A stretch of 64,000 nt of DNA, taken from Tethya wilhelma. Taxonomy: Eukaryota > Porifera > Demospongiae > Tethyida > Tethyidae. The stretch is taken from positions 775,811-839,810 of the forward strand of contig CAXIPT010000015.1 in the NCBI GenBank assembly GCA_964030475.1, written 5' to 3'. Shown here in pieces: positions 11,196 to 52,829 of the stretch (positions are counted from its first letter, which is position 1; each line of letters begins with the position of its first letter). The notes under the pieces are model-generated. The model had not been told where the DNA came from. It was given only the letters and a program-made list of their open reading frames with translations, and searched no databases. A program made the translations under genes and the position numbers.

Positions 11196-11196
11196 N

Positions 11197-46639: not shown

Positions 46640-48400
46640 AGTGTTTATTTTCATTTTCCCTCTCTATTTTCAAATTTGCTATATATTTTTTTTACGCTGA
46701 GCCCGTTTTCGTAGGCATAATGAAGGTGAGCTAAATAAATTGAATACTATACTTTTCAATGTTTTAGTGTTGTAGGGTTAAGAATAGTATTGCTATTTCC
46801 AATTTGCACACTTTTAAGGTCTGGTGAGTAAGGGTTAAGTAAGGTATAACTGTATGCTTTTGTATTATCGTACAGCTGATCACAATACCCTCTATATCCG
46901 GTACCCTGAATTTTAATTTAGCTGTTTGAAGGTTAATATAGCACACAGCTTTATTCGAGGCTGGTGATACTTGGATGAGCAAGTGGTGAGGTATTAAACT
47001 GAGATGTAGATGGATGCAAGTTGGATCCTTCAAGAGTAATCATATTCATAGCAATAGGCAAAATATTAGTTATGAAATAGCAAACCTTTCAGACTGAGCT
47101 TGCTGCAGAGTACACAACTGAATGCAGATGGTTAGAGAGACACCGTTGTGGAAAACCGATATACATGTACCAAAAGAGATACCACTTGTCCACAAACTAG
47201 TTAAACCATGAGTTAGTGGGTGCAGTTTGTACAGTTGTATCTGTACAAGAGTAATTAATTTATTAAGTATATATAAAAAGGCAAAACAATAGTTTATAGC
47301 AAACCTTCGAACTGATAAATGACTTGAAACTTGCTGAAAAGTACTTGAATGAAGCTAGAACTAGGATACAGAACTGCTACTCTAGTATGGGAACAGAAGT
47401 GACACTTGTGACTTGAATCTGAAGTGTGGAAGAAAGCGACATAGGTGCTGCTATGCACGAGTACAAACACTTGAGACTACTTGAACTTGAACTCGAAAGC
47501 CGAGACGCTGCCATGGAAATGGTCGCTAAGCTAATTTTTTCACGTGATTTTATACGCAATCACGTGGAATTTAACTAGAGCGTGCGCGCGAACCCGCGTA
47601 TGTAGCTGCTGTTTTTTAGATGAATAATTCATTTTCCCTGTGAGTGTGGTGGCTACCATACACACTGTAATTTTTTAATTGCTAGAGTAACAAATTTTTT
47701 TGGTTAAAATGATGATTTGAAAATAACACATTCTTTTATTGTTAAAACAACAATTACAAAGACATGTAGTAATTACATTCATAAATGTGTCAATATGGCA
47801 AAATTTTATGTCATATTAGCAGTGAATACTACTAGTATTTTGAATATAATAATGTTGTAGTAACATTGCAACAGATGCTAAATTTGATGTTTAGTATTGT
47901 TAACTTAACAATTATTAACTGCAATTATGAGAGAAAGTTAATGTTGTATAAAACTGCTATTGTAACAAGCATTGCTGTTTTATCTATCACTTTCGTTCCT
48001 TTTACAGGTAACTTTGTTACACCAATAATTATAAGCTATATTCTTTATCAGTACAATTACTTTTGTTGTATTGTCCTATTGTTATGACAAACATTATAAT
48101 TATATGCTTATCATTCTTTGTTTACAATAATTATGATAATTGTCATTATAACATAATATTGTTGTACATATGACAAACATATGTTTATTCAAATTATTAA
48201 GAACTGTTATTGTAACAACAGCATTGCTGTTTTACAAAAATTAAAATGAATCACAGCACTAGTACTAAATATTGTCATGAACAAAAGAATGTTTACAGGC
48301 CCTGAAGTATTAAACAAGAGAACACAGCAGTAGTATAATTATATGTAGCTTAAACGAGAACCTTGCGTACTTAATGTATGCGATTTAGATTGCTTGTTTC
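46640..48400. other. no gene recognised
   Basis: AT-rich. 46,800-47,560 holds only short frames; 47,600-48,300 is rich in ATTGTT/AACAAT stems. The left end of the following two-gene element should lie near 48,300-48,400, but I could not define it. Confidence 0.4.
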
Positions 48401-48416
48401 CAGACCTCGATCCGCG

Positions 48417-48425
48417 TATAAAAGG
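48417..48425 (+). promoter_or_regulatory. TATA box upstream of the ballast-like gene
   Basis: TATAAAAGG in locally GC-richer sequence, about 190 bp upstream of the first ATG I assign (48,604). A short upstream frame beginning AAAATGGCGGCTCG (48,467 on) may be an untranslated-leader uORF or an alternative first exon. Confidence 0.5.
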
Positions 48426-48603
48426 ATGGGGGGCCAGGCCGGAAGTGCTTTGCCATGTGCAATGAAAATGGCGGCTCGATTTGAATCTCTCTTCCAACTC
48501 TCGACTGTATATCACACAGTACATGCTAGAAACGGTTGAACACGGATGCACAAACACACATATATGATCTAAAACACGTGGTATAAAATTTTTTCTGACC
48601 TCT

Positions 48604-48669
48604 ATGGTGAAAAATATGGCATCTCTACCATCTGGCAGTCCAACCACAGATAGCTCCAGGGATATAACA
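48604..48669 (+). CDS. ballast-like gene, exon 1
   Basis: MVKNMASLPSGSPTTDSSRD then IT, ending in phase 0 at GTAAGA. The next exon (48,725) follows a TATATGTAG acceptor in phase 0. Ser/Thr/Pro-rich and probably disordered. The start could also be the second ATG (codon 5). Confidence 0.6.
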
Positions 48670-48724
48670 GTAAGAGCAGAACAAATCCACAAATAGCAAT
48701 AGTAAACATAAAAATTATATGTAG

Positions 48725-48975
48725 GTCAGAGTTGAAAGTGAGGAGTCACCACCAGCTGAGTTTCTGTCTCGCCTTGAGCAGTTCCTGGCAGAAAACCATC
48801 CGCCAGGTTTTAACATCACTGTTACAGTTGCTGGTAGCTCCCCTTTAGATCCACCCTCCCTGCCCTCTCATAGTTCTTTGCCAGATCTAGGTCCTCCCAT
48901 TGACAGCTCATCCCAAGAGCCAGATGGAGATGATGAGGACCTGAATGCAGACGGTACACACAAAAATTGTACACT
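48725..48975 (+). CDS. ballast-like gene, exon 2
   Basis: Encodes AEFLSRLEQFLAENHPPGFN then ITVTVAGSSPLDPP and an acidic Ser/Pro/Asp-rich tail (EPDGDDEDLNAD). Two donors are possible. GTACAC at 48,954 gives phase 1, which does not fit exon 3. GTGAAA at 48,976 gives phase 2, which fits exon 3 exactly and leaves a 64-bp intron. I chose the latter; the weak donor should be tested. Confidence 0.6.
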
Positions 48976-49039
48976 GTGAAACACATAATTTATTCTATTT
49001 ACATATTGTGCAACAGTACCTACCTTAATTGTTCATCAG

Positions 49040-49482
49040 TCACCCGACTGGTTACAAGCACCGTCCAAACTATCCCGTGTACAGAGGGGAAAATCACTGC
49101 CCAGACTGCCTATGCTCTCCATGTGTGGTCAAGATGCCTCCAGACTTCCTTCAAGGATCCAGTGGCCCCCATGAGGGAAATGATGAGAAACGGCACCGGC
49201 TGTACTCCAAGTTCTGGAGGCTCTTGAACAGGCTAGGCGTCTGGGGAGATGAGGAGTACATTCGAAGGAAAGAAATGAGAACAGTTCGTCATGATAAACG
49301 GGACATAATTCCTGCTTGTCTTATAAAGGTATAAGTACAATAATAAAAAACTTAGCTTTTTTCATTTGTCTAATGACATGTTCTTGATAAATCTTGAATA
49401 GGAAATCAGGAGGAGGTATCCTAGCCTGAATGGAGAGTACAGGGACTACAGGTCAACATTTGAAGCTCTAACTTTAGATTAA
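49040..49482 (+). CDS. ballast-like gene, exons 3-4: P2X7 C-terminal (ballast)-like domain
   Basis: Exon 3 (49,040-49,328) and exon 4 (49,402-49,482), phase 0 junction. It reads GENHCPDCLCSPCVVKMPPD (CxxCxCxxC cluster), HRLYSKFWRLLNRLGVWGDE, then RDIIPACLIKEIRRRYPSLN and GEYRDYRSTFEALTLD, stop at 49,480. The ending 'R.IP.C....IR..(F/Y)P...G.Y..(F/Y)' is the signature of the intracellular C-terminal domain of vertebrate P2X7 receptors (P2RX7_C). No ion-channel part is present. The domain also occurs alone in invertebrates. Convergent with the gene at 49,505. Confidence 0.72.
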
Positions 49483-49504
49483 TTAATACACTCACACAAA
49501 GTAT

Positions 49505-51395
49505 CTAATCTTCATCGCTGCTCTCATCTGAGGAGTCTAGAGGCACCAGCAATCCATCATCAGCACCGTCATCCACACCACCACCACCCCATTCACTGTC
49601 GTCACCTTCAGCACCATCATCTAATTCACTGTAATAATAGTTTTTGTACTCACTCACTCACTCTCTCACACACGCACACACACACACACACACGCACACA
49701 CACGCACACACACACACACATTTACATTTTTGTGCATACCTCAGATTGCTTTTGTTGCGTGTAACATAATCAGTCCAGAGGGCATTTACGAATGTGAACT
49801 TCTTCTTGACCAACACCTTCATATCTGTCCGGCGGTCAGGTCTGCGCAAATCTGAAACTTTGCGCGTGCTGGTATACTCCCTATCTACATTCTCATTCTG
49901 CAAACAACATAATATTATAGTAGGTGAATGCTCAATGCTGTACATAAAGTGTAACTTACCCAGTCAAGAAGGGCTAGGTTCATCCTCATCAAGAAAGTCG
50001 GAGTTGAAAAGTGAATCCGCTTCGGAACGTAGGTCAGCAACTGATGGTTGAATGAATCAACCCAGAATGTATCGCGACACTAATAACAAGTGTACACAGG
50101 TTAGTGTTAGAAATTGTGACACAATATTGACCATATCTTACCCTGCAAAAGTCTTCTGCATTGCGAAATATGTATGTCGCCTTCAGATACTCCGTCAAAC
50201 TCACAATGGCTCTTGGATTAGTGAGTTGATCTTTGCTGGGAGTATACTCAACTGTGTGGCAAGATGACGTGGACGGGCAGTGTGTATGAATACCCTATAT
50301 TTGAAAGAACATGTATACTGAAGCAACTTGATCTGAACAAACTATAATCAACTAACTTGGTAGTGATTGGGGATGTTCAGTATGAGTTCTCGAAGTTTAT
50401 CTGGATTTCCCTCACAGTTCTTCATTGCCCAGTATAGATGAATCTTGGTACTTCTCTCTAATGAAAGAACACCATTGTAACACAAAATAAATATTGTATT
50501 TACTCTTACGTTTGTCTGTGAGTTGAGGGAACCAGGTTTTTCCCCTATCTCTAACACGTCCTTGTGAAATCTTTTTCATCTCTTTAGCCACATTCTTGGT
50601 GCCTATGAGCATAGATTTGTATGCAAAATGGTTTGCATGGAGCATACATGATTTGTATACAAAATGGTTTGGATACGTACCATGCCATGTATCATACGAG
50701 TTGGTAAGTCCTAAATCTTTTGTAACATAATTAGAAACTTGTGCTTGAATGTCGTGTGCTACTTCAACAACATGTAGACCTGTAACAATTGTGCACCCAT
50801 GACATTGACCCAAAATATTTCACATCTAACCTCTTTCCATCACTTGAGGAACAACCACCTTGGTACATGCTAGCTCTCGAGTCTGAGCAGTAGCATGATC
50901 TGTCCGGGATATTGTACTAATGCCTAGAATCTTGTGAGTGCTAGATGGACAGAAATAGTTTTAAAATGAGCAATAGTCACAAAGACAATAATAATTGTAC
51001 CTTCCAGACACGCATGGGACAGTAGTATGAAAGGCATTAGCAGTCGAGTCATGACGTGCATCTGTGATCACCCACTGCATGGATACACAGATATAAAACT
51101 ACAATAGTAAGTACGACGTACTGCGCCTTGTATGGGATATTCAGGTGACTTCTTGATTTCTTCCACAGCATTCTCCATACTCTTCATTGCAGCTGAATTC
51201 ACACAGTCAACGTATCCCTTTTGGTAGTACACTATAGACGTTGATATTGATAAAAATTAATCACAGTTTACATATATAACTGAGTACCAACCGTTGCTGA
51301 CATATGAATCTCCAACGACTCCAATCCCGGCAAATTGACTCATGTTTTTGTACTGAGACGGTAGCACACCAGCACAAGTAAAGGCATGGATCATC
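49505..51395 (-). CDS. multi-exon transposase-like gene convergent with the ballast gene (5' end missing)
   Basis: Eleven exons, minus strand: 51,292-51,395; 51,122-51,231; 51,001-51,074; 50,831-50,940; 50,681-50,779; 50,510-50,602; 50,357-50,457; 50,142-50,294; 49,960-50,079; 49,740-49,897; 49,505-49,628. All junctions have GT/AG and matching phases; introns are 47-111 bp; about 415 residues. Landmarks: FAGIGVVGDSYVSN, WVITDARHDSTANAFHTTVP (first Asp candidates), LHVVEVAHDIQAQVSNYV (second), NSYDTWHGTKNVAKEMKK, THCPSTSSCHTVEY, SFNHQLLTYVPKRIHF then LMRMNLALLDW, and an acidic tail DDGLLVPLDSSDESSDED. The D...D...WH..KN layout fits an RNase-H-like DDE/D transposase of a class common in invertebrates and fish that I cannot name. 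No lesion seen. Upstream exons are lost at the N at 51,466. Confidence 0.72.
49669..49720. repeat. (CA)n microsatellite
   Basis: CACA run with CGCACA interruptions inside the last intron of the transposase-like gene. It explains why that intron is longer (111 bp) than the others. Confidence 0.9.
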
Positions 51396-51466: not shown

Positions 51467-51725
51467 ACATTGGAAATGTAATGAGACATAGGAATGGCCA
51501 AATCGTAAAAAAGAAAGCAAACAAGATTGAATGGCTGTATGAGTGTGTAAAGAATTATTCCTATGGGCAACATGAGGGACTCAACATGGTGAGAGAGTAC
51601 TACATGCAGCCCACACAGGAATGATTCTGCGCACACTCAGACAGCCATTCGTTCTTGTTTGCTTTCTTTTTTACGATTTGGCCATTCCTATGTCTCATTA
51701 CATTTTCAATGTTTTTTTCACTTGT
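51467..51725. mobile_element. family C foldback, solo copy
   Basis: Begins right after the N with ACATTGGAAATGTAATGAGA, arms inverted, spacer GGGCAACATGAGGGACTCAA..GCAGCCCACACAGG, ends CACTTGT. Confidence 0.85.
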
Positions 51726-51805
51726 AAAACATTAGCAATTTCATTTTAAGGCATCAGATGCTTGTTGTGTTTTCAACTTACAGCTGACTTTGAGTGCTTT
51801 GCCCA

Positions 51806-51918
51806 CACAGGAATGATTCTGCGCACACTCAAACAGCCATTCAATCTTGTTTGCTTTCTTTTTTACGATTTGGCCATTCCTATGTCTCAATACATTTCCA
51901 ATGTTTTTTTTCACTTGT
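51806..51918. mobile_element. family C, right half
   Basis: CCCACACAGGAATGATTCTG to CACTTGT, duplicating the right half of the copy just upstream. 51,920-52,820 contains no recognised gene. Confidence 0.75.
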
Positions 51919-52829
51919 ATAGTATATTATTATAACATTTACAGAAACCAGTTGAGCCAAACAAAGCAGAACTTTGTCTACTGAGGGAGATGAGTGATAA
52001 AAGTAAAATTGGAGGTATTTAGAAAGTTGATTTGTGAGTTATATTGAGTTTCATTCGTAATTATAATAATTATTATTCAGCTGTAGGTTGCCAAGATGAG
52101 TTGACTGTTTGTAAAGATGTGGCTACAAAGTCTAGTAGCAGCTCAAGTAGTTTCATCAGAAGGCCACCAAGTGAATTGAGAATAATTGGAAACATCTTGA
52201 GAAAAAACATTTCTTTATCCAAAGGACCACATTTTATCCCAAGAAGTAGCTATTGTTATTAAATTATCATGTCACATGTGACAATGTCACATATTTATGT
52301 ATGATCTCAATTGTAACATTACATTGTAAGTAACCAAAGCTATAATAATAACAATAATTAAATTGTTGAGTACAGTTAGATCGAATTGTGTATATATGTA
52401 ATAATAATGTTACTGCATTATGATAATAATTATGAGATTACATACATATAGAGCATAAATTGTTCACCAATTACAAGACATTCATCTTCTCATGGGAATT
52501 TTGAAATATGTGTGATCGTGATGAATTGACAACGGTTGGACAACACTGGCTCTAGACATGGGTAGTACTTCTGTTGGAGAGGAAGTTGCTTCTGAAAATT
52601 CAGGAGTAAGAAGGACATTATTCTCTTCAGGACTGGTTACTTTCTAGGATTGCTCATGGGAGCACAACACATCCATGACTACACATGTGTGCACACATAA
52701 TACATACCATATATACACACAAGTAGTTGTATTATATGATTGGTTACCTCTGTGTTTGTGTCTTTCTTATAGTTGTGGAAGGCAACTTGCTGCCTAAAAT
52801 AATCAGCACATAGGAGAAAAATGCATATT

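Follow-up and report, generated by a model that had tools for sequence, protein, structure and literature searches.

A P2X7-ballast-like gene of the sponge Tethya wilhelma in a probable TTAA-targeting transposon related to Kol0

Why should a gene whose product ends like the intracellular tail ("ballast") of P2X7 stand tail to tail with a transposase-like gene in a sponge? The question is raised by a gene pair in a 64,000-nucleotide stretch of Tethya wilhelma DNA (assembly GCA_964030475.1, contig CAXIPT010000015.1, positions 775,811 to 839,810 of the forward strand), the whole of which is called the window below. The initial annotation of this DNA took the stand-alone P2X7-tail-like gene to be a transposon accessory gene, and this proposal is supported by a linked pair present in multiple copies, by inverted ends with TTAA and by a DDE transposase. 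The proposal is not new, since a link between the P2X7 tail and transposons was published in 2022 by Kojima and Bao (PMC9587614); in the parts of that paper covered here, the KolX protein of Kol0 Kolobok elements is given a ballast fold, P2X7 is proposed to be a fusion with KolX, and Kol0 is recorded from sponges. The gene pair in the window is real, multi-copy and mobile, and the region is very probably a degraded copy of a cut-and-paste DNA transposon with two genes and TTAA as its target, which is related to the Kol0 group of Kolobok and carries a KolX-like accessory protein.

The two genes face each other, with the plus gene ending at 49482 and the stop codon of the minus gene starting (in plus-strand numbering) at 49505. 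The 22 bp between them and both positions are as first annotated. When the genome was searched with the KolX-like core, 68 matches were found, all of which were entered and which fall into 49 loci. Among the transposase matches listed, 32 of the 49 loci have a related transposase tail to tail within 8 kb, two have one head to head, one has it on the same strand and 14 have none; the number of pairs of any kind expected by chance is 0.47. The two genes form a fixed unit. The transposase places in this count were the matches listed out of 202, plus 63 of 146 from a second search, most of the others lying at places already entered. The C3 copy was scored as having none, yet a transposase piece is present there; of the two head-to-head loci, the one on C12 adjoins a tandem copy; and the six close copies are among the 49 loci, not all of which are therefore independent. 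The tail-to-tail layout is old, because KolX-like core identities at these loci are as low as 36%.

Canonical ballast genes of the same genome are often arranged in the same way. The Pfam profile P2RX7_C (PF20478) has 20 matches in the genome at E 0.1, 18 of them above the cutoff, and 13 of the 20 have a Kol0-type transposase piece tail to tail within about 1.5 kb (12 of 19 when two matches at the same place are merged). At one of the 13, pieces on the same strand occur in addition, and the other seven matches have no Kol0-type transposase piece. One query piece in this count came from locus L044 and had been recognized by eye as a transposase C-terminus; when the canonical pieces are used without it, 9 of the 20 are paired, one being the element that supplied the pieces. 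One canonical Kol0 element (C21:24783-29044) is complete and free of N, with TTAA, AGGGGGGCTGC ends and a THAP domain, and its end match of 13/14 was reached in none of 300 simulations. No locus is shared between the canonical P2RX7_C loci and the KolX-like core loci. In two open frames (L047 1015-1950 and L058 979-1758), CXC-like repeats rich in cysteine are joined to a canonical ballast; Pfam finds the ballast clearly and CXC only weakly (E 0.046 in L058). Neither has a Kol0 transposase piece within 1.5 kb, and the frame that comes next in L047 gives a B-box-like match below threshold.

The plus gene of the window reads as four exons with GT..AG introns and 228 codons. Exon 1 lies at 48604..48669 and exon 2 at 48725..48975, the 3' border of the latter having been picked to join the frame and being the least certain. 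Exon 3 (49040..49328) carries a CxxCxCxxC motif, a KRHxLYxxFW helix and IIPxC, and exon 4 (49402..49482) carries EIRRRYPSLNGEYRDY and the stop. The C-terminal P2X7-ballast motif that had been noticed in this gene is retained, and P2RX7_C matches the 122-residue core at E 2.3e-4, but the score of 21.6 bits stays below the curated cutoff of 23.5 bits (relative P0001 reaches 19.8), and the significant match covers only profile positions 161-192, that is, the last 30 or so residues of the protein, encoded by the end of exon 3 and exon 4. Within a 40-member family set, made up of the window reading and 39 sequences picked from 183 relatives, two members match the profile at E 0.01. An AlphaFold model of P0001, built on a 7-sequence alignment, had a pLDDT of 43 and was discarded. 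At one locus (L066, C4:4421750-4422779), the KolX-like frame has a long N-terminus of RGRGSS repeats, absent from the other copies read.

Across the 40 sequences, cysteines C74, C77, C82 and C147 occur in 40/40, C79 in 37/40 and C95 in 29/40. The family retains CxCxxC (C77, C79, C82) and PxC (C147); what it lacks from canonical KolX is the CC pair and the sixth cysteine. Of the ballast's seven cysteines, four are retained by spacing, and C74 is an additional invariant cysteine. Our own mapping of the nucleotide site and its surroundings, with residues numbered as in the parts of Rump 2020 (PMC7016195) covered here, places R546-H547 of rat P2X7 at R105-H/Y106 with equal spacing (R in 38/40; H in 25, Y in 13), Y550 at Y109 (39/40), F553 at F112 (37/40), P570-C572 at P145-C147 (39/40 and 40/40) and R578 at R153 (of the 20 rows reaching this end, 12 have R and 7 have K). 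R574 and K583 have no counterpart. Part of the zinc site is gone from the window lineage, which still has the nucleotide-pocket residues R-H/Y..Y..F and PxC...R. As judged from sequence, the plus protein of the window is a distant relative of the canonical ballast genes.

In one alternative, the plus gene encodes a small accessory protein with no kinship to the ballast; a Kolobok-type element would have captured it, and the resemblance at its end would be due to convergence. The shortness of the significant alignment favors this idea, as do the three ballast cysteines that have no fixed counterpart, the new invariant cysteine, and a last intron that seems to be placed differently from that of canonical KolX (in a reading made without a gene model). 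However, this genome's canonical Kol0 element carries a seven-cysteine KolX in the same tail-to-tail place, and the CxCxxC, RHxxYxxF and PxC...R spacings agree with ballast residues. Convergence is unlikely.

The minus gene has 11 exons in the window, with ten introns that are all bordered by GT..AG and one open frame to the stop, as the initial annotation had it. Read along the minus strand, exon 1 of the window set (51292..51395, the fourth exon in fuller copies) and exon 2 (51122..51231) are followed by exon 3 (51001..51074) with the first catalytic D (ITDARHDS), exon 4 (50831..50940), exon 5 (50681..50779) with the second catalytic D (VAHD) and DTWH, and exon 6 (50510..50602). Exon 7 (50357..50457) has the first zinc-finger H near its end, exon 8 (50142..50294) the HxxC....SxC part of the finger, and exon 9 (49960..50079) the third catalytic position; exon 10 (49740..49897) and the last exon (49505..49628), with an acidic tail and the stop, complete the gene. 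A TG/CA microsatellite (49658-49720) lies in the last intron, and the same intron of the C21 copy has an N within its TG repeat.

Pfam, hhalign and the predicted structure of a relative all place this gene among the DDE transposases, the kind of family that had been guessed for it. Its Pfam match is PF20700, named Mutator-like transposase, and no piggyBac model is among its Pfam matches; an RNase-H-like fold is predicted for a transposase relative, with ISCth4 as the best structural match; and hhalign against the canonical Kol0 transposase of the same genome (one hand-joined reading) gives E 8.5e-17 over 347 columns. The residues D229, D295, D315xxH318 and E442 (numbering of P0009) form a DDE core with the C/DxxH signature between the second D and the E, as in Kolobok, and zinc-finger residues H381, H386, C389 and C395, which lie between DxxH and E, are present in 25/25 aligned sequences. 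Halichondria, Ephydatia and Amphimedon supply the best-scoring named relatives of both proteins; corals and a pearl oyster rank lower. Searches of PDB sequences with the KolX and transposase profiles gave no credible match, and a Pfam search found no THAP domain in the C21 reading or in P0009. A THAP domain is usual in Kolobok but not universal, according to the portion of PMC6004289 covered. The minus gene is a DDE transposase of the Kolobok kind.

The name of PF20700 and the match to ISCth4 could also be taken to mean that the transposase is of the MuDR rather than the Kolobok kind. However, MuDR target duplications are longer than the TTAA that adjoins the ends of these elements, and the transposase aligns over its full length with the THAP-bearing Kol0 transposase. 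The text covered of PMC9587614 ascribes a zinc finger between C/DxxH and E to almost all Kolobok lineages except Kolobok1 and denies it to MuDR, and a MuDR assignment is accordingly very unlikely. Within Kolobok, the TTAA target site duplication is present at both ends of the C5 and C21 elements described below. The 5'-RR and YY-3' termini are not found, the window lineage having AC..GT, and for this reason we call it a Kolobok-like variant and not a member of Kol0.

Evidence for mobility comes from the other copies and their ends. A 1,101-base query gave 10 matches in the 124.6-Mb genome, including the window itself; five further places match at 93-98% over nearly the whole query, one matches at 80%, one over 296 bases at 86%, and two over fewer than 85 bases. 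The unit in the window starts at 48350 with TTAA (48350..48353), followed by a left terminal repeat region (48354..48450, plus strand) that begins ACGAGAACC; the C21 copy has a right end that pairs with the inner part of this region, GTATAAAAGG..GGGGCCAGGCC. In five of the six near copies TTAA directly precedes ACGAGAACC, and an N cuts the sixth. The inverted ends that were to be looked for around the pair are indeed present with TTAA. The C21 copy measures 4,018 bp between its TTAAs and has matching ends, and a diverged relative (C5:3467992-3471965) is 3,966 bp long without internal N, its inverted ends reading ACGAGARGCGGG and adjoining TTAA at either side; its end match of 11/14 was reached in one of 300 first-order Markov simulations. 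Termini of the form ACGAGA..TCTCGT occur in two subfamilies. At the C4 locus, complete ends were not found within the 4.5 kb examined. The two ends are asymmetric: from ACGAGAACC to the inner GTATAAAAGG block, the left end in the window is longer by about 50 bases, which have no equivalent at the right end of C21.

Copying of a host locus by segmental duplication, which could account for a left flank common to two of the five copies (about 1 kb in the C3 and C21 copies) and for the failure to find a joined match to an empty site of the C21 or C5 insertion, is extremely unlikely and was rejected as the main cause because the left flanks of the other close copies are distinct and each end at the shared TTAA, while C5 has inverted ends and the pair includes a DDE transposase. 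The two halves of the C21 flanks recur separately and never together: the left half is found again at C3, C42 and C1, the right half at two C4 sites, so the C21 flanks may have been joined by assembly. The C21 copy is itself damaged: a 7-bp direct duplication at exon 3/4 of its transposase, absent from two other copies, shifts the frame and rules out a normal exon 3/4 join, and its KolX frame is probably shifted too, since exon 2 matches only partly in frame.

The window copy is not intact. Its homology to the fuller C21 copy extends to 51465 and stops at a single N (51466), taken as an assembly join. The right terminal repeat is missing, as are three upstream transposase exons that are found in copies at C21:156699, C21:4626 and C4, and the third catalytic residue is D, against E in 22/25 aligned relatives (in the remaining three, of which two have G and one S, the sequence diverges from the family there). 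The initial annotation, which was right about the anatomy of the pair, had called the minus gene intact with no visible lesion, and this part of it fails. Both the state of the window copy and the shortness of its ballast match limit the support for the accessory-gene proposal. Beyond the N lies a palindromic repeat unit (51467..51926), outside the element, that has copies near several other loci (C1, C5, C12, C69) and is probably a miniature inverted-repeat element. Single N's also occur in the window at 11196, 12848, 15849, 39757, 53835, 59331 and 61397, and within L010-L014 and L027; such N's look like assembly joins. Several apparent element ends (51466, the C3 copy and the second C12 copy) fall on N's, and truncations in this genome should therefore be read with care.

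Comparison of the window with C5 gives a nonsynonymous divergence (dN) of 0.34 for KolX (158 codons) and 0.24 for the transposase (344 codons), with synonymous divergence (dS) beyond the range of the method; the combination of low dN with saturated dS between subfamilies suggests that both genes have been under purifying selection. The closer comparisons, which involve few changes, give dN/dS values of 0.38 (KolX) and 0.21 (transposase) for the window against C21, and 0.51 and 0.88 against C1.

If the region is such a transposon, its transposase would cut the element out after binding to ends of the ACGAGA type and would insert it at TTAA. The KolX-like gene is transcribed from the opposite end and meets the transposase gene tail to tail; its product would most likely be a nuclear partner of the transposase, acting in complex assembly or in end or target binding by means of its cysteine knuckle and guanine-nucleotide-pocket residues. 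P-element transposase uses GTP. Along with the pocket residues, this raises the quite unlikely but concrete idea that Kolobok transposition complexes have KolX or its reduced relative as a guanine-nucleotide subunit acting in trans, comparable to the built-in GTP domain of the P element; the retained pocket would then be the selected core, and the GDP site in the vertebrate P2X7 tail a relic of the transposition machinery.

The sponge data support the published claim of a transposon origin for the P2X7 tail. To the account in PMC9587614, as far as its text was covered, they add the AC ends, the absence of a THAP match, the cysteine-poor KolX-like protein and the tail-to-tail rule; that text has no description of AC..GT ends, of such a rule or of a Kolobok-type transposase with a reduced KolX, though other parts of the paper, its supplements or Repbase may record them. 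The word "convergent" does not occur in PMC9587614, and Rump 2020 (PMC7016195) contains no word beginning "transpos". The added lineage has a ballast-like protein with fewer cysteines in which nucleotide-pocket residues persist, and this gives a concrete reason to ask whether KolX binds GTP/GDP and whether transposition needs KolX, questions on which the covered papers report no experiment. Annotations of invertebrate ZCD or "P2X7-like" genes, and synteny arguments based on them, may in part rest on transposon genes.

Among known systems, the P element and hAT (Hermes) transposases share the RNase-H-like core and the C/DxxH signature with the window element but lack KolX, and their ends and target differ. 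The P2X7 ballast and the NANOR/ZCD proteins, in the parts of PMC7016195 covered, share the C-terminal motif and the spacing of R546, H/Y547, Y550, F553, P570, C572 and R578; the window protein differs in having no channel, a shorter middle and fewer zinc cysteines, and in being transposon-borne. A few piggyBac families, according to the covered text of PMC9587614, carry a KolX-like C-terminal protein without most of the seven cysteines and share TTAA, whereas the window transposase matches Kol0 and PF20700 and no piggyBac model. The closest system is Kol0 with KolX (PMC9587614, and the element at C21:24783-29044), which shares TTAA, two genes for a transposase and a ballast-related protein, their tail-to-tail placement in this genome and a homologous DDE core. 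In the canonical Kol0 copy the ends are AG..CT, the transposase bears a THAP domain and KolX has seven cysteines. The window lineage differs in its AC..GT ends, in giving no match to THAP and in its cysteines: by spacing it keeps four of the seven, and it has a new one.
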